DNA from: Nitrosomonas aestuarii
GTDB taxonomy: Bacteria; Pseudomonadota; Gammaproteobacteria; Burkholderiales; Nitrosomonadaceae
Length of the DNA stretch: 64,000 bases
Direction: 5' to 3'
NCBI RefSeq assembly: GCF_003046585.1
Contig: NZ_QAAE01000006.1
Span: 1 to 64,000, forward strand
Made by a program: the position numbers and the translations under genes
Notes under the pieces: generated by a model
What the model saw: the letters and a program-made list of their open reading frames with translations, nothing else
What the model was told of the DNA's origin: nothing
Database searches by the model: none
Shown: one piece after another, positions 11,235 through 41,141 of the stretch
Layout of the letters: each line of letters begins with the position of its first letter
Position numbering within the stretch: the first letter of the stretch is position 1

Positions 11235-13349
11235 ATGCGAAAACAACTGATTCAGAGAACCCCCTTTCTCGACGGTGAAGACGTCAACGCGAAACGAGCA
11301 GAAATTCGTAACTATTTTCATGGCACGCTGGATTGTTATGAACAGCTTTTCAAAACACTGCGCAATGATGATGCTTATTACAAAAAACCGATTTCACTGC
11401 GTCACCCTCTGATTTTTTACTATGGTCACACGGCGACTTTTTTTGTCAACAAACTGATGCTGGCAGGATTGATCACCAAACGTATCAATCCAAAATTTGA
11501 ATCCATGTTTGCCGTCGGCGTGGATGAGATGAGCTGGGACGATCTGGATAACACGCATTATGAATGGCCTACTGTAGAAGAAGTACACCGCTATCGCGGC
11601 ATGATGCGCAGCATGGTCGATAGGCTGATCAGCGATTTACCGCTGACACTGCCAATTACCTGGGAAAGCCCCTGGTGGCCAATTCTAATGGGCATTGAAC
11701 ATGAACAGATTCATTTAGAGACATCTTCCGTACTGATTCGGCAACACGCGCTTGCGCATGTGCAAACACATGAAGCCTGGCGGCCTTGTGAAAAAACGGG
11801 CGTTGCACCCGAGAATGAATTGATCAATGTACCTGCCGGATCAATTGAAATAGGCAAAAACAAAGTATCGCATCAACATTACGGCTGGGATAATGAATAT
11901 GGCCTGCATACTGCAGATATCGCAGCTTTTCAAGCCAGTAAATATCTTGTCAGCAATCAGGAGTTTTTTGCTTTTATGCAGGCGAACGGTTATCAGACAG
12001 ACGATTACTGGGAAGAAGAAGGCTTGTCCTGGCGTAACTTCACCCATGTCAAACACCCTGCTTTCTGGATAAAGAAAGACGACAACTGGTTCATGCGTAC
12101 TATGACCGACGAAATTCCGATGCCATGGGACTGGCCTGTCGATGTTAATTATCATGAAGCAAAGGCTTTTTGTAACTGGAAGACGAAAACAACAGGACAA
12201 CCGGTCAGATTACCTACCGAAGACGAATGGTACCGGCTATATGATATCTCCGGTTTGTCTGAAGTACCCCATGACAAATCGGCTGCGGGCAATCTACATC
12301 TCGATTATTATGCTTCCAGCTGCCCGGTGAATGAATTCCCACAAGGTGAATTCTTTGATATCGTAGGCAATGTCTGGCAATGGACCGAAACACCGACCTA
12401 TCCATTCGAAGGTTTTGATGTGCACCCGCTGTATGATGATTTCACCACACCGACTTTTGATAACCAGCATAACCTGATCAAGGGTGGTGCATGGATTTCC
12501 TGTGGCAATGAGTCTCTCAAAAGCGCCCGCTATGCATTTCGGCAGCACTTCTTCCAGCATGCGGGTTTTCGCTATGTTGTATCCGACGCACCGGCCACGT
12601 TGCAGACTTCAAACTATGAAACCGACAAACTACTTTCTGAATACGCCGAATTTCATTATGGCGACACCTACTTTAATGTACCAAACTTTCCCAAAGCACT
12701 CGCGGAAATTGCAATTGCCGCCATGGGCGACAGACCTGCACATAAAGCCCTCGACCTCGGCTGCGCATCCGGACGCTCAACTTTCGAGCTTGCACGTCAT
12801 TTTGACCGTGTAATTGGCATTGATTTCTCCGCGCGTTTTATCGGTCAGGGTGTGCAACTGGCGCAACAAGGCATTCTACGCTACACGCTGACCGACGAAG
12901 GTGATTTGGTATTCTACAAGGAGCGTACACTCAACGGCCTGGACTTGGAAGCCGTGAAAAACAAAGTAGAGTTTTATCAGGGTGATGCATGTAACCTGAA
13001 ACCATTGTTTTCAGGTTACGACCTGATTCTTGCGGCAAACCTGATTGACCGGCTGTACGATCCCGCCAAATTACTTAACGTTATCCATACACGCATCAAT
13101 AAAGGCGGTCTGCTGATGCTTACATCACCGTATACCTGGCTGACTGAACATACCAAGAAAGAACATTGGATTGGCGGCTTCAAACGCGATGGAGAAAATT
13201 TCACTACCCTGGATGGTTTGAAAGAAATTCTCGGCAAACATTTCAAATTGATTCAAGGTCCGCAGTCGGTACCTTTTGTCATCCGTGAAACCAGCCGGAA
13301 GCACCAACACACATTATCCGAAGTCACTATTTGGGAGAGAATTTCTTGA
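11235..13349 (+). CDS. ovoA: 5-histidylcysteine sulfoxide synthase / 4-mercaptohistidine N-methyltransferase (OvoA)
   Basis: First enzyme of ovothiol A synthesis. The iron-dependent part joins cysteine sulfur to C5 of histidine with O2, and the C-terminal domain later N-methylates the mercaptohistidine. 704 residues match full-length OvoA. An N-terminal DinB-like domain carries H65, H156 and H160 (the latter two in EHEQIHLE), the likely three-His iron site. A central FGE-type catalytic domain has RLPTEDEWYRL, FDIVGNVWQWTE and GGAWISCGNES. The C-terminal SAM methyltransferase, about 505-700, has ALDLGCASGRSTFELA. The methyltransferase fusion and the adjacent PLP lyase favour OvoA over EgtB. 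It overlaps ovoB by 19 nt, indicating translational coupling. No strong Shine-Dalgarno is seen before the ATG. Confidence 0.93.
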   Translation: MRKQLIQRTPFLDGEDVNAKRAEIRNYFHGTLDCYEQLFKTLRNDDAYYKKPISLRHPLIFYYGHTATFFVNKLMLAGLITKRINPKFESMFAVGVDEMSWDDLDNTHYEWPTVEEVHRYRGMMRSMVDRLISDLPLTLPITWESPWWPILMGIEHEQIHLETSSVLIRQHALAHVQTHEAWRPCEKTGVAPENELINVPAGSIEIGKNKVSHQHYGWDNEYGLHTADIAAFQASKYLVSNQEFFAFMQANGYQTDDYWEEEGLSWRNFTHVKHPAFWIKKDDNWFMRTMTDEIPMPWDWPVDVNYHEAKAFCNWKTKTTGQPVRLPTEDEWYRLYDISGLSEVPHDKSAAGNLHLDYYASSCPVNEFPQGEFFDIVGNVWQWTETPTYPFEGFDVHPLYDDFTTPTFDNQHNLIKGGAWISCGNESLKSARYAFRQHFFQHAGFRYVVSDAPATLQTSNYETDKLLSEYAEFHYGDTYFNVPNFPKALAEIAIAAMGDRPAHKALDLGCASGRSTFELARHFDRVIGIDFSARFIGQGVQLAQQGILRYTLTDEGDLVFYKERTLNGLDLEAVKNKVEFYQGDACNLKPLFSGYDLILAANLIDRLYDPAKLLNVIHTRINKGGLLMLTSPYTWLTEHTKKEHWIGGFKRDGENFTTLDGLKEILGKHFKLIQGPQSVPFVIRETSRKHQHTLSEVTIWERIS

Positions 13350-33191: not shown

Positions 33192-33392
33192 TTTTCAAAG
33201 GTATGCGAGGCGTTATTCAAATCAGAGATAACCGCTGCGTGGCATCATCGAGCGTTATGAATTGTGATAGGGTACAGCGCAACTATGTAAAGAATACCGC
33301 ATGTGACGCTCCAAATCCAATCACTTGAACAGATAATACACCGTTAACAATGTTTCATCGTGCCTGATAACCTGCAATACATACCGACCCCG

Positions 33393-33980
33393 ATGCAACG
33401 CATGATACTTGTCATCTTTCTCGTATTCATTGCATTGTCAGGCTGCCAGCAACTCAGCAAGCAGGCGCGCCCGATCGACAGTATTCCATCGACCGATACA
33501 CCTTATCAACGCAAAGACTGGCCGCACTGGATCGATGCAGACAAGGACTGTCAGAACACTCGGCAGGAAATGCTTATCGCAAACAGCAAAACCCCGGTCA
33601 AATTTAAAAATGCCAAACGCTGCACCGTTAAAACCGGTCTGTGGATCGGTCCTTATACCGGCAGAAAATTCACCCGGGCTTCGGATGTCGACATCGACCA
33701 TATCGTTCCACTTGCTCACGCACACCGCCATGGGGCAGACAAGTGGACCAGGACACAGCGCCGCACCTTCGCCAATGATTTTGAAAACCTGCTGGTGGTT
33801 GATGACGCCACCAATCAGGCCAAATCAGACAAGGCTCCGCATCAATGGCTGCCGCCAAATAAAGATTTCTGGTGCGAGTATGGCCAGCGCTGGCAGCGCA
33901 TCAAGGACAAATACCGGTTGATCTACAATAAGCAAGAAAAAATGGCTTTAAAATTGTTGGCTGAGACCTGTTTTCGATAA
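33393..33980 (+). CDS. Exported HNH-type (DUF1524-like) nuclease lipoprotein
   Basis: 195 residues from the ATG at 33393, which starts a lipoprotein signal (MILVIFLVFIALSGC, lipobox LSGC). A GTG at 33360 would add 11 residues. The catalytic region has DVDIDHIVPLAHAH, the beta-beta-alpha-metal His motif, and FANDFENLLVVDDATNQAK with the Asn residues of HNH/DUF1524 secreted nucleases. KGDKAPHQW-type sequence follows (SDKAPHQWLPP). Paired cysteines may form disulfides. Its role may be extracellular DNA degradation for nutrients or competitor DNA. No immunity gene is evident, which is normal for exported nucleases. It is divergent from the M1-M28 gene. Confidence 0.82.
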   Translation: MQRMILVIFLVFIALSGCQQLSKQARPIDSIPSTDTPYQRKDWPHWIDADKDCQNTRQEMLIANSKTPVKFKNAKRCTVKTGLWIGPYTGRKFTRASDVDIDHIVPLAHAHRHGADKWTRTQRRTFANDFENLLVVDDATNQAKSDKAPHQWLPPNKDFWCEYGQRWQRIKDKYRLIYNKQEKMALKLLAETCFR

Positions 33981-34006: not shown

Positions 34007-34615
34007 TTATCTACGCCAGATCGTTTTTTGGCGCCTATTAAAACTGAACACCATTATTCCCAAACCCAGAAGCGCCAGCGGAGAAGGTTCGGGAACAGTA
34101 ACAACCTGCGTAAGAAAACCGCGAATTTCTCCCCCTGACGCAAACGTAGTGTGGATATTGAAATAAGACTTATGAAGTGACATGCCAGCGTACAAGAACT
34201 GCTGTGCTCCCGTTATTCCGCCATGAGTTGTGATAAAAGTTGAGTTAAATGATGAACTCAGAGTCATATCCAGAATATTATCGTAAGTGCCTGCTGTTAC
34301 CGCTAACGGAAAACCTGCAAAACTCGGGGTAGTCGTGGCTACACCAACAACTCCCGTCAATGGATCAGCAGTGCAGCAGTGTATGTGCGCAGCGGTTGTC
34401 GTGCCAATCAAATTGGAAAAACTCGCCTGAATGTGCATCGTGTTGGCGACATCGTCGATAGTAACTGTAACAAAACCAGACCCTGGAGACACAATTGGCG
34501 GGGATTCACTGGCTCCATTCAATACCGCTGAGTAGGTCATAATACCCGCATTAGCAAGTGGTATGGTAACCAGTATGCATGTAATAATGACCGCAAAAAT
34601 GCCTGAACGCTTCAT
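34007..34615 (-). CDS. CHRD-domain PEP-CTERM protein
   Basis: 202 residues from the ATG at 34615, chosen because GGAG lies seven bases upstream and a signal peptide (MKRSGIFAVIITCILVTIPLANA) begins there. A longer frame to 34708 would overlap the promoter. The CHRD domain spans about 27-165, with YSAVLNGASESPP, the GSGFVTVTID segment, AAHIHC and a GGEIRGFL end. The C-terminal PEP-CTERM signal is VPEPSPLALLGLGIMVF then RRQ. Exosortase substrate, probably surface or matrix located. A weaker sigma-54 site lies about 95 nt upstream, paralleling the PEP-CTERM gene at 16.4 kb. CHRD proteins have no defined enzyme activity. Confidence 0.87.
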   Translation of the reverse strand: MKRSGIFAVIITCILVTIPLANAGIMTYSAVLNGASESPPIVSPGSGFVTVTIDDVANTMHIQASFSNLIGTTTAAHIHCCTADPLTGVVGVATTTPSFAGFPLAVTAGTYDNILDMTLSSSFNSTFITTHGGITGAQQFLYAGMSLHKSYFNIHTTFASGGEIRGFLTQVVTVPEPSPLALLGLGIMVFSFNRRQKTIWRR

Positions 34616-34709
34616 GATAATCTCCGATGAATGATTGAAACCGCTCTGTACAGTCAGATCATTACTACTTCTGCCTGAGTTCTGATAAAGAACCATATTA
34701 AATTTCAAG

Positions 34710-34802: not shown

Positions 34803-35051
34803 ATGCCGCATAACGAAATCCAATCCAGCAAACAGATATTCATCAGTTACAGCCGCACCGATAACGAAGCGTGCATTGCACTGCGTTTGGCTTTGGAACA
34901 GGCTGGCTGCAGTGTTTTTCGGGACGAAGATGCAGTCGGTATCATGATCGGTGAGTGGGTGCTGAAGTTGAAGTCGCGCTTGTCCGCAACCTGTCACCAC
35001 AGGATGATCGTCCCCCATCGAATAGCGGTTCGCTGGCGCGCTGAACACTGA
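34803..35051 (+). pseudogene. Truncated TIR-domain gene
   Basis: The first 60 or so codons read a good TIR start: KQIFISYSRTDNEACIALRL, then LEQAGCSVFRDEDAVG and GEWVLKLKSRLSA. This corresponds to the first strand, helix and box-2 region. The frame then turns into unrelated sequence and ends at codon 82, without the catalytic-glutamate region or any partner domain. It lies next to a REP pair and RayT. It is probably the remains of another TIR-fusion gene like the one at 36.1-37.3 kb. Confidence 0.65.
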
Positions 35052-35210
35052 AATACCGGGCAGCCGCTCACTGTGCGCCGCAAAGCGGCACCGCGTGCAA
35101 TTTTTTGCTTTCATTCTGTTCAGAGGATTAGCATACTGACCATGCAAATCGCGTTTGCCGTTTTGTGGGGCTCCCTGAGACAAGAATCGTATGCTGCGCT
35201 GGATGGTGTC

Positions 35211-35324: not shown

Positions 35325-35861
35325 ATGCCTAACTACCGGCGCAACCGCATCCCCGGCGGCACATATTTTTTCACCGTTAATTTACAAGACCGCGCATCTG
35401 ATCTGCTGATTACGCATATCGACGCATTACGAACATCCGTTCTATCCGTCAAACATCGGCATCCATTTCGCATTGATGCGTGGGTGGCGCTGCCCGATCA
35501 TCTGCATTGCATCTGGACACTGCCTGAACATGACGATGATTATTCCAGCCGCTGGCGAGCGATCAAAAAAGCATTCTCAAAATCCATTCCAAAAACCGAA
35601 TACCGTTCACAAACCCATATCAAACGCAATGAACGCGGTATCTGGCAACGGCGGTTCTGGGAACATACCATTGCCGACGATCGCGATTACGCCGCACACA
35701 TGGATTACATTCAGTACAACCCGGTGAAACATGGTTGGGTGGCATCGGTGAAAGAATGGCCGCATTCAACTTTTCATCGGCTGGTTGAGAAAGGCGTTTA
35801 TCCGCTGGACTGGGTGGGTGGTGCTGCGGAAATACCGGACAAGGGTGAGCGGGATGAATGA
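35325..35861 (+). CDS. REP-associated tyrosine transposase (RayT, Y1/HUH family)
   Basis: 178 residues of the IS200/IS605-like Y1 transposase superfamily. The HUH motif is in WVALPDHLHCIW, and the catalytic tyrosine is in MDYIQYNPVKHGW. RayT-typical segments IPGGTYFFTV, the WQRRFWEH block and WPHSTFHR are all present. RayTs nick single-stranded REP sequences next to a GTRG-like tetranucleotide and are thought to spread REPs. This gene is bracketed by REP copies 2 and 3, the standard arrangement, and others lie around the neighbouring TIR genes. The frame is intact, so it may be active. Confidence 0.93.
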   Translation: MPNYRRNRIPGGTYFFTVNLQDRASDLLITHIDALRTSVLSVKHRHPFRIDAWVALPDHLHCIWTLPEHDDDYSSRWRAIKKAFSKSIPKTEYRSQTHIKRNERGIWQRRFWEHTIADDRDYAAHMDYIQYNPVKHGWVASVKEWPHSTFHRLVEKGVYPLDWVGGAAEIPDKGERDE

Positions 35862-35922: not shown

Positions 35923-36048
35923 AGATCAGCAGGATACATGAATTACACAGATAAGATGGGTTGCTGCGCAGCCCATCCCCCGTCTGTCTCCCGCGCGCTC
36001 CGCCAGCGCGGCTGCCAGCCGGCTGCTGGCCTGCTCCACTGATGATGC

Positions 36049-36065: not shown

Positions 36066-36084
36066 ACACTTGCCTGACCTGAGC

Positions 36085-37263
36085 TCAATGACCTCGGGCA
36101 AGACGAAAGCCAGTATCGTGGCGGTAAGACGGATCGAAGTGAAGGCGGATGGCGGAACGGCAGGACCTGCCGTAGTTGATCCACGAGCCGCCGCGCAGCA
36201 CGCGCAACGCGCTATTGCCAGTTTCCCAGGATGAACCATCGACAGGTGCACCTTGATAATTATCATGCCATATGTCCTGACACCATTCCCATACATTACC
36301 GTGCATATCGCACAGGCCAAACGGATTGGGCGGATACGCACCCACTGGTGTCGTTTTGCCAACATTTCTATTAAAATTCGCCTGTTCACTGGCAATGCTC
36401 TCCCCTGTGCAATACCGCGTCTGGGTACCTGCACGGCAGGCATATTCCCATTCGGCTTCGCTGGGTAAACGGTAACTGCGCGCCGTCTGTTCGCAAAGCC
36501 AGATGCAATAATCCTGCGCATCCTGCCAGGAAACATTAATTACAGGCCGGTTTTCCCGCCCCCAACCCTTGTCATCCGGTTTTTTCCGACCGGTTTCCCG
36601 GCAAAATTGATCGTAATCATCAAACGTTACGGCGTAGACACCCATCGCAAATGGCTGCGCAATCTGCACGTCATGCTGCGGGCCTTCATTCTCATATCGA
36701 TCCGACTCATCTTCCGGCGATCCCATGAGAAAACGTCCGGCAGGAATCGCCACCATCAACGGCCCTTCACCGCCGGTTTTCAACTTGTCGCGAAAAATCT
36801 GCCCCGGTGCGGGTAAGGATGGCGTGACGATTTGCGGCGGTTTAACAGCAATCGTTGACGATTCTGACGCATGACCGTTCAGATGCAGGCGCAATGGCGT
36901 TAACAAATCCGTCAATCCGGCATGATCCACGCCGTCCTCCCAGTCAGTCAGATTGGCTGTTTGAATACGGCCAAATCCATATGGCAATACTATCGATTCA
37001 ATCAATGCCGGGAAAAGAATATCCTTGCGCTTGCCGTAATCCGCTTCCTCGAGCACATAGTCACTGTCACGCGATTGCGCCGACCAGAGCACAACCACCG
37101 CTCTGGCAGCGTGTAGTTTACGTTCAATTTCTTTATCCCATCGGCGGCCAACATGCGTATTTCTGTCGATAAAAACCGACCAGCCTTCCGCCTGCAATCG
37201 TTCAAACAGACGGTTGGCAATTGCCACATCCGTTTTTGAATAGCAAAGAAAAATATCACTCAT
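36085..37263 (-). CDS. TIR domain fused to C-type-lectin/FGE-like domain, putative DGR variable protein
   Basis: 392 residues, no signal peptide, so cytoplasmic. The TIR domain covers about 1-125: SDIFLCYSKTD, then GWSVFIDRN, then DSDYVLEEADYGKRKD with E72 near the catalytic-glutamate position. A linker runs 126-165. The FGE-sulfatase/C-type-lectin fold covers about 168-390 (AIPAGRFLMGS, RLPSEAEWEYACRAG, the FGLCDMHGNVWEWCQD segment, LRGGSW). True formylglycine-generating enzymes have two active-site cysteines after GGS; here the first is Asn and only C368 remains, so sulfatase activation is unlikely. Residues 362-383 look like a DGR variable surface. A sensing TIR receptor is the inference. 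It is divergent from TIR-TIR-SLOG and bounded by REP copies 3 and 4. Confidence 0.85.
   Translation of the reverse strand: MSDIFLCYSKTDVAIANRLFERLQAEGWSVFIDRNTHVGRRWDKEIERKLHAARAVVVLWSAQSRDSDYVLEEADYGKRKDILFPALIESIVLPYGFGRIQTANLTDWEDGVDHAGLTDLLTPLRLHLNGHASESSTIAVKPPQIVTPSLPAPGQIFRDKLKTGGEGPLMVAIPAGRFLMGSPEDESDRYENEGPQHDVQIAQPFAMGVYAVTFDDYDQFCRETGRKKPDDKGWGRENRPVINVSWQDAQDYCIWLCEQTARSYRLPSEAEWEYACRAGTQTRYCTGESIASEQANFNRNVGKTTPVGAYPPNPFGLCDMHGNVWEWCQDIWHDNYQGAPVDGSSWETGNSALRVLRGGSWINYGRSCRSAIRLHFDPSYRHDTGFRLARGH
36115..36180 (-). other. Putative DGR variable region (VR), 3' end of the TIR-lectin gene
   Basis: Codons 362-383 sit directly after GGSW and before TGFRLA, the position and flanks of DGR variable repeats in lectin-fold targets. 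Compared with the usual template-derived consensus (GGSW-NNN, NCRSANR, then RNNNxGFR), the changed positions are I362, N363, Y364, G365, S367, I372, L374, H375, F376, D377, S379, Y380, H382 and D383. Each is an NNC or NNT codon (for example ATC, TAC, GGC, TCC, CAC, TTC), as expected if AAC/AAT template codons had adenines randomised and kept the third base. Fixed residues C368, R369, S370, A371, R373, P378 and R381 use codons without such change. No template repeat or reverse transcriptase is seen in this window. Confidence 0.65.
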
Positions 37264-37386: not shown

Positions 37387-39516
37387 ATGGACATACGCCC
37401 ACCATTACACCTGCACCTGCTGGCGCATCCCCAATCCGAACAAGCCAACGCGCTGGCAGCCATGCTGATGCATCGTTTTGTCGAACCGCCCGCCAGCGGC
37501 GGGTTACGGGTACCGGTCTTTTTTACGCCGGACGACGGAGACGATCTGCCGCCGACTTTGAATGCCGGTGATGGATTGCATCTGGATGCCGCCCGGTATA
37601 CGATTATCGTGGTGCTGGCCGATGCGCGCATGCTGCGCACCGTTCCCAATGGCACCGGACGCGCCTGGATTGATTTCGTTGAACAGGCGATTGCAGCAAC
37701 ACCGCTGGATGCAAGTCCGCATCATGTGCTGCCGGTGGCGCTGGAACAGGCAGGCTTTCAGATCAGCAAGGGGCGCCATGTGTTACCCGCAATGCTCGAT
37801 AAAACCAGTACCGGCGAACAGGCAGCCAGTGCGCGCCGACTGGCCGAAGTGTCATTTCATATTGCTGCACGTGCGATTCAGTTGCTTACACATGGCAAAG
37901 TGCCTGCAGACGCGCCCGACAAAATAAAAGCGCCGGTTACGATTTTCTTAAGCCATGCCAAAGCCGATCTGGACCGGCAACATCGTGAAGACCCGGTACG
38001 CCAGACACGTTCGGTACTGAATGAGTTACCGGTCGAGCAGTGGTTCGATGCGCAACAGATCGCCACCAGTCAGGATTTTGCCGATGCCATCCAGGCGGGT
38101 ATACGCGGCAGCACCATCATGCTGGCATTTCAGACCGATCAATACAGTTCGCGCCCCTGGTGCCGCCGCGAGGTACTGGAAGCCAAACGGCTCGGCGCGC
38201 AGATTCTGATCGTGGATGCACTTGAATCGGGCGAGCCGCGAAGTTTTCCCTATAGCGGTAATGTACCGACCGTGCGCTGGCAATTTGGCGAACCGGATGT
38301 CGATGCACGCCGCGTCATCGACCGCGCCGTGCTGGAAGCATTACGCCTGCAACATAATCGCGCTGTGCTTGAAACCGTAGCTGAACCCGGCGAAACTGTT
38401 TTGGCCATAGCTCCGGAAGCGGTTACGCTGGCCTACGCCTGTCAGGAGAACGAACCAGGGAAAACCTTCCTTTATCCCGACCCACCATTGAGCCGCGAGG
38501 AACTCCAGGTATTACAGCAGCTGCGGCCCAAAGCGCAGTTCATCACGCCACTCACCAAAATTGCGCAGCACGCCCGGCAGCAGCAGGCCGGGAAAATAAA
38601 CATGATCACCGTCTCGATCTCAGACAGCGAGGATGTGCGTAAATATGGGCTGTCACCGGAGCATTTCGCCACGCTGACGGATGAGATACACCTCTACCTG
38701 CTGATGGCCGGGTTGAAAATCGCTTACGGCGGCGCCTTGAAAGGTGATTTTTCCGCAGCATCGAATTTTACGCTGCGTTTGTTCGAACTGGTGCGCGCTT
38801 ATTCAAAACTGGCCGAAAACGTGCAATCACAGCCGCTGCAACACGCCATCCACAATTTTGCGCCGTGGCCGCTCAGGTTGAGTTATGGAGACGCCGAATG
38901 GAATCTGTTCAACAGTGATATTGCACAGTACGACGAGGGTCCCCGGCCTGATTTACCGTGGGATGATGATACGTTGTTTCCACTTGCTGAAAATTACACC
39001 CGATCATTGGATTCAAATTCGCCGCAACGCCGTTACGCCTGGGCGCACGGATTATCCGCCATGCGCGACCGCATTACCGAATCGTCACAAGCACGCCTGG
39101 TCGTCGGCGGCAGGCTTACAGGATTCTCCGGTATCGTGCCAGGTGTCGTGGAGGAAGCCTGGCTGTCGATCAAACAACAAAAACCGCTCTATATCGCCGG
39201 CGGTTTTGGCGGCGCGGCTCGAGCTGTGTACGATCATTTGCTTAGCAACGAGCGCGTTGAATTCAGTGATACCTGGTCAAAACAGACCATACCGGACTAT
39301 GAAGCTGTGTCTGCTTTAAATACTGAGCACGGCGGCACATTGCCAACTATGGAAAAAATCGGCGCAGCGCTTACTGAACATGCTCAGGCAGGGATCGCGC
39401 AAACCCTTAACAACGGTCTTGATGCGCAGGAAAACATTGCACTCATGACCTGCACCGATCCGCAACGCATTGCCGGATTTGTTCTGACCGGTATCGGGCG
39501 GCTCCGATCGCAGTGA
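37387..39516 (+). CDS. TIR-TIR-SLOG protein, putative nucleotide-sensing defence effector
   Basis: 709 residues, soluble. Residues 1-165 look like a degenerate TIR-like domain (LHLHLLAHPQ, then RYTIIVVLADARML). Residues about 182-340 are a clearer TIR (VTIFLSHAKADLD, EQWFDAQQIATSQDF, then RPWCRREVLEAKRLG with E262 at the catalytic position). From M406 to the end is a SLOG-superfamily domain with ITVSISDSED, the YGGALKGDF motif, GGRLTGFSGIVPGVVEEA and YIAGGFGGAARAVYDHL. SLOG domains bind nucleotide-derived ligands, as in Thoeris ThsA, which senses a cyclic ADP-ribose signal and kills by NAD depletion. Here a TIR would be the effector in place of SIR2. That function is inference. It is divergent from TIR-lectin and bounded by REP copies 4 and 5. 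Confidence 0.78.
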   Translation: MDIRPPLHLHLLAHPQSEQANALAAMLMHRFVEPPASGGLRVPVFFTPDDGDDLPPTLNAGDGLHLDAARYTIIVVLADARMLRTVPNGTGRAWIDFVEQAIAATPLDASPHHVLPVALEQAGFQISKGRHVLPAMLDKTSTGEQAASARRLAEVSFHIAARAIQLLTHGKVPADAPDKIKAPVTIFLSHAKADLDRQHREDPVRQTRSVLNELPVEQWFDAQQIATSQDFADAIQAGIRGSTIMLAFQTDQYSSRPWCRREVLEAKRLGAQILIVDALESGEPRSFPYSGNVPTVRWQFGEPDVDARRVIDRAVLEALRLQHNRAVLETVAEPGETVLAIAPEAVTLAYACQENEPGKTFLYPDPPLSREELQVLQQLRPKAQFITPLTKIAQHARQQQAGKINMITVSISDSEDVRKYGLSPEHFATLTDEIHLYLLMAGLKIAYGGALKGDFSAASNFTLRLFELVRAYSKLAENVQSQPLQHAIHNFAPWPLRLSYGDAEWNLFNSDIAQYDEGPRPDLPWDDDTLFPLAENYTRSLDSNSPQRRYAWAHGLSAMRDRITESSQARLVVGGRLTGFSGIVPGVVEEAWLSIKQQKPLYIAGGFGGAARAVYDHLLSNERVEFSDTWSKQTIPDYEAVSALNTEHGGTLPTMEKIGAALTEHAQAGIAQTLNNGLDAQENIALMTCTDPQRIAGFVLTGIGRLRSQ

Positions 39517-39626: not shown

Positions 39627-41141
39627 CTAATAATTCCATTGTAACTGGAAGCGCATAATATTCGCGTCTTTAACATGTACCAGGTTCTTGACATTGGTTC
39701 TATCCATATGCGAATAGGCGACGACAAATTCAACTTCCGGTCTGATTTGCCATTCAAGACCTGCTTCAATCTCTCTGACACGTGCAAAGGGTGCATTCGC
39801 CTGGAATTTCTCGGCACCACTGTATTTCTGCCATTTTACATACGGAATCAAGGCACCCCACGGACTATCATACTTGTACATGGCCTGCACGTAACCACCG
39901 TCAATATTGCCTGATTCTATGCGTGTCATATCAGCACTTAACTGCGGGGATTTACCCCAGTTCCATTCGGCCTGCAAACCAAAAGGCTGCGGGTATAAAA
40001 TAGCGTGCAAACCGATACGCGCATCGCGATAACCTTTTTTATTGAAGATTGGCGCAGCGAGAATACCGGCACCCGTATTTACCGCCACATCCGGTACAAA
40101 TTTTCCGGTATAACCATAAACACCCGTCTCAAAAATCTGACCATTATCAAACTGGAATGGATAAGTGACCCGTGCTGCAATATGCAGATTGTCATTTTTA
40201 TCCCTTTCATTAAGGCCCTGTCCGGTATAAAGGCCAAAACCGATCACACCATAATCACCGGAACCCTTAAGTCCTTTTCTTAGGAAACTGAACCGTTCCT
40301 GGATATGCTCGGGCGTCCAGTAGAAAAATACGCCGGTGTCACGCTCGTTTCGAACACCGGTACTGAGTGCGTCAGCGCGCTCAAACGCTAGCCGGTCGCG
40401 GCTTGACTGCAGTAATTCAAAGCTGTTCGGTACTTTCGACAAACCCGGACGAATACGGAATTCTTTTTTCTTGTCAAAATAGATGTCACCATACATGTCA
40501 CGCACCGACACATCACCACCCGCGAACTCTGTTTGCATATAGAGCTTCAGATGGTCGCTAATATCACCCTGGAACACCAAACGCGCGCGGCGGATAAAGA
40601 AATTGGTATCTTCCTCGATGGATTTATCCCCCGGCGAAGACAGATTTTCCAGGTCCCCGCCCAAACCGGCGCTTTGACGGAACTGCGTATAACCCCCAAT
40701 TTTAATCCTGTCATACCATTTTTTTTCTTCTTTAGAAGCGGATTTCTCATTTTCGGGCGTGGAATCAGGTACGGGCACCGGTTGAGTTTGCTCAGATGCT
40801 GTCTGGATTGCCTGTTGCTGCGCTTCAAACCGCGCTTCCATAGCTTTGAGTTCTTCCATTTTCTGATCGATTCTGGTCTCAAGCACCCTGGCTTCTTCTT
40901 CAGTTGGCCTTTTTTCGGCAGGCATGTTTTCAGCCTTCTTCACTGGTTCAAAATCGCCCAGTTTGATGCGATTTTCTCCCGGTGTTGTATAGACCTGATT
41001 GGTTTCCGGATCGACGTAAAGTGTCAAAGCGGATGCTGTTGATAGATAACCGGCCAGCAGTATAGTCGAAACAATCCATGCAAATCGTTTTTGCCTCACA
41101 ACGGGCAAGAACTCTTTTTCTTCTTTTCCAGACATACCCAT
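39627..41141 (-). CDS. Phosphate-selective porin (OprO/OprP family)
   Basis: 504 residues. A membrane-crossing signal segment lies at about 21-39 (FAWIVSTILLAGYLSTASA). A periplasmic coiled-coil region, about 60-125, is rich in E, K and Q (KRPTEEEARVLETRIDQ), as in porins that trimerise through an N-terminal coil. The OprO/P-type 16-strand barrel follows (NFFIRRARLVFQGDISDH, LYMQTEF, the RPGLSKVPNSFELLQSS block) and ends MRFQLQWNY with a terminal aromatic. Probably takes up phosphate or other anions across the outer membrane; selectivity is not provable here. Stand-alone gene. No PHO-box was recognised upstream. A start two residues later is equally possible. Confidence 0.85.
   Translation of the reverse strand: MGMSGKEEKEFLPVVRQKRFAWIVSTILLAGYLSTASALTLYVDPETNQVYTTPGENRIKLGDFEPVKKAENMPAEKRPTEEEARVLETRIDQKMEELKAMEARFEAQQQAIQTASEQTQPVPVPDSTPENEKSASKEEKKWYDRIKIGGYTQFRQSAGLGGDLENLSSPGDKSIEEDTNFFIRRARLVFQGDISDHLKLYMQTEFAGGDVSVRDMYGDIYFDKKKEFRIRPGLSKVPNSFELLQSSRDRLAFERADALSTGVRNERDTGVFFYWTPEHIQERFSFLRKGLKGSGDYGVIGFGLYTGQGLNERDKNDNLHIAARVTYPFQFDNGQIFETGVYGYTGKFVPDVAVNTGAGILAAPIFNKKGYRDARIGLHAILYPQPFGLQAEWNWGKSPQLSADMTRIESGNIDGGYVQAMYKYDSPWGALIPYVKWQKYSGAEKFQANAPFARVREIEAGLEWQIRPEVEFVVAYSHMDRTNVKNLVHVKDANIMRFQLQWNY

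Follow-up and report, generated by a model that had tools for sequence, protein, structure and literature searches.

The C-terminus of a TIR-FGE gene of Nitrosomonas aestuarii is a genuine DGR variable region (VR), belonging to a family that we call type I in Nitrosomonas, and it looks orphaned in its genome, as far as the sequence of the assembly tells. The explanation we favour, with good confidence, is that a true type I VR now sits without its element on a receptor whose locus was ancestrally of type II, and that the tail was gained by recombination at the codons for a GGSW motif. The gene is part of the window, by which we mean the whole stretch of 64,000 nucleotides that was analysed, and shows the following features:

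36085 to 37263, minus strand: TIR-FGE gene coding for 392 amino acids, with TIR_2 at residues 4-113 and FGE-sulfatase at residues 168-390 (Pfam 4e-19 and 3.3e-61)
36181 to 36192, minus strand: GGSW codons, the 5' border of the VR
36112 to 36180, minus strand: variable codons 362-384, the type I VR, one codon fewer than in the template of the sister genome G045
36078 to 36111, minus strand: 3' edge, IMH-like, whose DNA most of 15 aligned loci conserve beyond the stop codon
36045 to 36069, minus strand: perfect inverted repeat (hairpin) downstream of the VR
36019 to 36037, minus strand: type I flank element GGAGCAGGCCAGCAGCCGG

Reading the gene codon by codon, we found the GGSW motif at residues 358-361, where the original prediction had put it, and the interspersed residues C368, R369, S370, A371, R373, P378 and R381 also agree with what had been described. 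All fourteen positions that had been listed as variable (I362, N363, Y364, G365, S367, I372, L374, H375, F376, D377, S379, Y380, H382 and D383) indeed carry NNC or NNT codons, but the list needs correction as a list of variable sites, since G365 (GGC) and S379 (TCN) are fixed codons in the type I template of G045. Judged by the same template, H375 (CAC) and D377 (GAT) can vary at the middle base only, and R366 (AGG) and T384 (ACT; ATC in the template), which had been absent from the fourteen, start with a template adenine. The interval from GGSW to GF comprises 23 codons in the window VR compared to 24 in the template and most VRs. NNY codons make up 28 of 31 at residues 362-392 vs. 180 of 361 among the remaining codons of the gene (binomial p=2e-6, in a test picked after the stretch had been seen). 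The assignment of the C-terminus as a DGR variable region, proposed from these codons alone, was borne out by templates in sister genomes, DGR-type reverse transcriptases (RTs) and adenine-specific differences between VRs and template repeats (TRs). Pfam and fold comparison likewise agree with the proposed FGE-type (C-type lectin) domain, which has the VR at the 3' end of the gene and is joined to a TIR domain.

The relatives were covered by searching 85 genomes of the genus Nitrosomonas, the own one included, 19 of which gave matches to the VR plus flank. Full-length DGR RTs (E<1e-100) are present in 12 of the 85 genomes, six of them among these 19; the 13 others, most of which are drafts and some of which have short matches or matches of a related type, yielded no full-length DGR RT, with RT fragments kept in G017 and G032. 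Thirteen RT frames picked by a motif script contain G[LI]P[IL]G[NS]LTSQ and YxDD, the SQ motif being a mark of DGR RTs; an HRDC gene is found in the G045 DGR and a bAvd gene in that of G036. TRs are distinct among the pattern-picked segments of the fetched loci, with 9-13 codons starting with AA in 11 segments vs. 0-6 in the others. VRs and templates fall into three families, whose names were coined in this analysis. Type I tails mostly end with GFRLARGH (G045 contains the template, G046 one interrupted by the end of a contig, and G070 and G083 have related ones), type II tails with GFRVLCSSPIE (templates in G011, G044 and G036), and type III tails show GFRIAR (templates in G021, G056, G061, contig 1 of G045 and G066). 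At G044:C21:40301-40414, a type II template and a VR lie close together in a draft without a full-length DGR RT (best E=1.7e-37, within a 711-aa frame). C-terminal DGR RT fragments at G032:C3:112241-112468 and G047:C212:2614-2829 (profile 287-362 and 287-358; E=2.4e-19 and 9.1e-20) apparently belong to decayed elements, and L084:9466-13140 codes for a 1224-aa protein (NACHT + FGE) whose tail is type I-like; it belongs to G039, a draft in which no full-length DGR RT was found.

Differences at template-adenine sites were analysed in 52 segments chosen from the fetched loci, a subset of all pattern-picked segments. In 16 VR/TR pairs from ten template-bearing loci, 10-21 of the 25-32 template-adenine sites differ, compared to 0-4 of the 70-77 other sites. 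The own genome offers a second VR for comparison, because a 206-base query over the window VR retrieved itself and a single further locus on contig 16 (L004:4290-5159), where a 289-aa FGE gene has the gene end and parts of the 3' flank in common with the window gene. Using the adenine-site map of the G045 template, since the genome's own template is absent from the assembly, we found the two VRs to differ at 13/25 adenine sites vs. 4/83 others (Fisher p=3.6e-7), and all four non-adenine differences are at third codon positions. The differences between the two genes at codon positions 1, 2 and 3 amount to 7, 6 and 3 in the VR vs. 70, 63 and 103 over the 175 codons of the FGE body. The contrast is weaker between the window VR and the foreign G045 template (12/25 adenine vs. 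10/74 other sites, p=1.4e-3). At non-adenine sites, the contig 16 VR is the closest to the window VR, and the next ones, from other genomes, differ at 6/83 sites, which weakly favours a common template within the window lineage. Where a VR adjoins a type I-like template of its own, the two differ at 0-1 of 75-76 non-adenine sites. Codon bias alone is refuted by these tests.

The DGR responsible had been expected to be encoded elsewhere in the genome, but this was not supported by our searches of the assembly, a 58-contig draft with a stated completeness of 100. The RVT_1 profile gave no match in the own genome at E<=0.001 (control positive in 3/14 genomes), the BPP-1 RT only a best E of 0.25, and a profile built from 12 of the 13 motif-picked Nitrosomonas DGR RT frames nothing at E<=1e-10, while no bAvd was obtained at E<=1, with a weak control that was positive in 1/14 genomes and below the cut-off. 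The G045 type I template as query recovered the two VRs and five chance-level hits, and type II VR DNA recovered a remnant (see below) and ten chance-level hits, with no template in either case. An RT remnant was not found either in the part of the window from 30 to 42 kb. Because the assembly is a 58-contig draft, RT, TR and Avd are to be called not found rather than proved absent. The original prediction had named two observations as speaking against a DGR target; a lack of RT and template was indeed seen, for the assembly only, whereas identical codons in distant strains were not, as the codons differ in the relatives of other species that were compared. In the closed genome G066, the G045 template retrieved four type I VRs plus a hit of 26 bases, and no template of this type. 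Three of these VRs differ mutually at 11-16 of 27 adenine sites vs. 0-1 of 75 others, the fourth shows 11/75 non-adenine differences from the other three, and the sole full-length DGR RT of this genome sits at a type III locus. Type I orphans are therefore not merely a matter of assembly. Closed genome G016 contains VR-like tails of other types and gave no RT match.

The TIR-FGE protein of the window is 72-74% identical to its orthologues in G066 and G070, both of which have type II tails. DNA homology with these orthologues (73-76%) reaches 36178-36181, the end of GGSW, and then ceases, and the window VR and 3' flank match type I loci instead. This break indicates that VR and 3' flank were exchanged between DGR families; that an exchange between VR types took place is clear. 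We calculated a tree of 12 TIR-FGE bodies (2, 5 and 5 rows with tails of types I, II and III; 200 bootstrap trees), leaving out the G025 and G067 genes, which are split, the G035 gene, which is 43% identical, and partial matches confined to TIR. It needs three type changes vs. a minimum of two and puts the window row closest to G070 and G066, with weak forks there. A second TIR-FGE gene with a type I-like tail, from G046, lies near the window gene in this weakly resolved tree, and the two type I rows form one group in 12% of the bootstrap trees. Because of the weak forks and this grouping, the direction of the exchange is not proven; type II is favoured as the older state because a type II remnant adjoins the gene.

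Downstream of the variable codons, most of the 15 loci preserve the DNA of the edge GGCTTTCGTCTTGCCCGAGGTCAtTGAGCTC across the stop codon, and so do five loci in which one base less abolishes the stop. Such conservation at the DNA level is as expected of a homing signal, and the edge may thus serve as IMH. The inverted repeat behind it is lacking at 6/15 aligned type I loci, and the flank element recurs at the contig 16 gene and at the majority of the remaining type I loci. Because the 3' flank of the window resembles those of VR loci, whereas the flank of the G045 template itself diverges after CGAG, retrohoming alone was rejected as the origin of the exchanged flank.

The surroundings of the gene contain the type II remnant and two anchors of synteny:

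33360 to 33980, plus strand: HNH gene, serving as synteny anchor, with 79% identity in G066 and G070
34803 to 35034, plus strand: remnant of a type II target, in which TIR N-terminal pieces run straight into the final codons of a type II gene and the middle is missing; intact relatives are TIR-nSTAND1-FGE genes
35035 to 35119, plus strand: 3' flank of type II targets, common to G036 and G011
35325 to 35861, plus strand: transposase-like gene, whose Y1_Tnp match (E=2.6e-4, 21.5 bits) falls just short of the curated cut-off of 23, occupying the place of TR, Avd and RT in G036
39627 to 41141, minus strand: porin-like gene (named by inspection), synteny anchor, also in G066 (77% at the DNA level over 1633 bases)

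The order in the window is HNH gene, an unrelated gene (34007-34708), remnant, transposase-like gene and TIR-FGE gene, and closed G066 shows HNH, TIR-FGE and porin-like genes in the same order, there with a type II tail. The type II end of the remnant is exact, and its 3' part was ruled out as an eroded VR, since TIR sequence is joined to the final codons of a type II gene. A complete type II DGR is present in G036 (L239:2914-8998), comprising TIR-nSTAND1-FGE (943 aa, plus strand), TR, bAvd (minus), RT (plus) and TIR-FGE (minus), so that its two TIR-bearing targets are convergent. Contig 45 of G070 contains both convergent targets with a Fic gene between them, adjoining the HNH gene as in the window, and no RT in the 9 kb analysed, and in G051 a broken RT fragment adjoins the TIR-FGE gene. 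By this comparison, the window locus looks like a type II DGR in ruins.

Two other genes of the window code for related domains. A 709-aa protein with TIR_2 and SLOG cluster2 (PF18163) domains is encoded between the TIR-FGE and porin-like genes (37387-39516, plus strand). This divergent gene was rejected as a conserved partner after negative tblastn searches in L235-L254, L074, L075, L084, L090, L091 and L004 (mostly partial stretches), and it looks inserted or lost because a search of the equivalent stretch of closed G066 did not reveal it. The 704-aa FGE-sulfatase-domain protein encoded at 11235-13349 (plus strand) is sulfoxide-synthase/methyltransferase-like by inspection; with NNY in 16/23 codons, a DGR-like pattern is not evident.

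According to the explanation we favour, the TIR-FGE gene probably served an ancestor as second target of a type II DGR at this place, arranged as in G036 with TIR-nSTAND1-FGE, TR, Avd, RT and an opposed TIR-FGE. TR, Avd and RT would have been lost later, and the first target would have shrunk to the remnant. The type I VR was most likely acquired together with the IMH-like edge and 3' flank from another type I target by recombination at GGSW, and its codons would have been written by a type I RT, either before or after the exchange. As neither this RT nor its template is found today, the tip appears to be a frozen variant. We give about even chances to the extension of this scheme to the whole genus, by which swapping VR, edge and flank at GGSW would re-plug an orthologous TIR receptor into another DGR, while receptors left without an element would persist frozen and germline-like.

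Three alternatives have to be weighed against this reading. It is unlikely, though worth serious consideration, that the VR was never written in this lineage and that the block of tail and flank arrived ready-made from another species and was then inherited. Tail and flank do behave as a block, and 13 of the 19 VR-plus-flank genomes (mostly drafts, some with matches that are short or of a related type) contain no full-length DGR RT, but the own two VRs are mutually nearest at non-adenine sites, as a shared template would give, although the margin is small (4/83 vs. 6/83 for the next). It is rather improbable that the DGR is still in the cell and keeps rewriting the VR, having been missed by the assembly as part of a plasmid, prophage or dropped contig. 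The assembly is a draft in 58 contigs, and two G046 contigs end inside a template, showing that such loci can break assemblies; however, the completeness is given as 100, six kinds of search remained without result, type I orphans exist in closed G066, and the own VRs differ at non-adenine third positions to an extent (4/83) not seen beside an own type I-like template (0-1 of 75-76).

We consider it hardly credible that the gene just has an ordinary conserved FGE C-terminus with codon bias and was never a DGR target. DGR-free FGE domains, such as that of a gene on the own contig 10, have the GGSW...GFR frame too, but the differences gather at template adenines and at codon positions 1 and 2, matching templates stand beside DGR-type RTs, and the DNA of the 3' edge is conserved through the stop codon.

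The favoured history concerns a TIR receptor tied to DGR diversification and offers a natural series, ranging from a complete DGR (G036) via an RT fragment (G051) and two targets without RT (G070 contig 45) to a switched VR with a remnant (window). This series lets one ask for the fate of diversified sensors after loss of the mutator, and the sharp exchange point suggests that the element rewriting a receptor can itself change.

The AlphaFold model of the protein has a mean pLDDT of 77.5 and is weak in the VR (blocks of 50-62); its lectin part matches PvdO, FGE and a Treponema variable protein, and its N-terminus TIR domains. The protein did not reach the cut-offs of antiphage TIR families such as Thoeris (NCBIfam ThcB4 27.3 bits vs. 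220; PADLOC only weak TIR-level matches, best E=1.7e-6) or of formylglycine-generating enzyme/PvdO (NCBIfam PvdO 192.8 bits vs. 500, with a Pfam domain match only). Treponema TvpA (PDB 2y3c) likewise combines an FGE-type lectin fold with a C-terminal VR (profile E=3.5e-38; Foldseek E=5.6e-11) and is not known to have a TIR domain. The BPP-1 DGR (NC_005357), for which PMC3240598 describes IMH and hairpin as required, also shows adenine-directed differences between VR and TR. A conserved edge with an inverted repeat behind it is seen in the window too, but the repeat is lacking at 6 of the 15 aligned type I loci. The BPP-1 target is a phage tail protein encoded next to RT and TR, whereas the window codes for a cellular TIR protein without either. 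The remote variable proteins of cyanobacteria and their paralogues are similar in having targets far from the RT, VRs at the 3' end of C-type-lectin genes and TIR among the domains; in the sections consulted of PMC7517822 the remote targets are linked to a DGR within the same genome, and none was found for the window gene. For Thiohalocapsa PB-PSB1 and RT clade 5, the consulted sections of PMC10907252 present DGR targets as putative antigen sensors that join C-type lectin/FGE VRs with domains of conflict systems, TIR and STAND NTPases among them, report several DGRs per genome, list Nitrosomonas as a carrier, and already describe DGR loci without RT or TR as well as domain shuffling (section 7). 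In line with these proposals, the window protein may be a cytoplasmic sensor, whose lectin tip would bind a ligand of an invader and whose TIR domain would then act by signalling or consuming NAD. We found no case of a VR type being exchanged at orthologous targets in the parts of the DGR literature searched, including PMC10907252, PMC7517822, PMC7159879 and PMC3240598. Compared to the systems treated in the consulted sections of PMC10907252, the window gene differs in that neither RT nor TR was found anywhere in the assembly, and in that the VR type changes between orthologues, with GGSW as the border.
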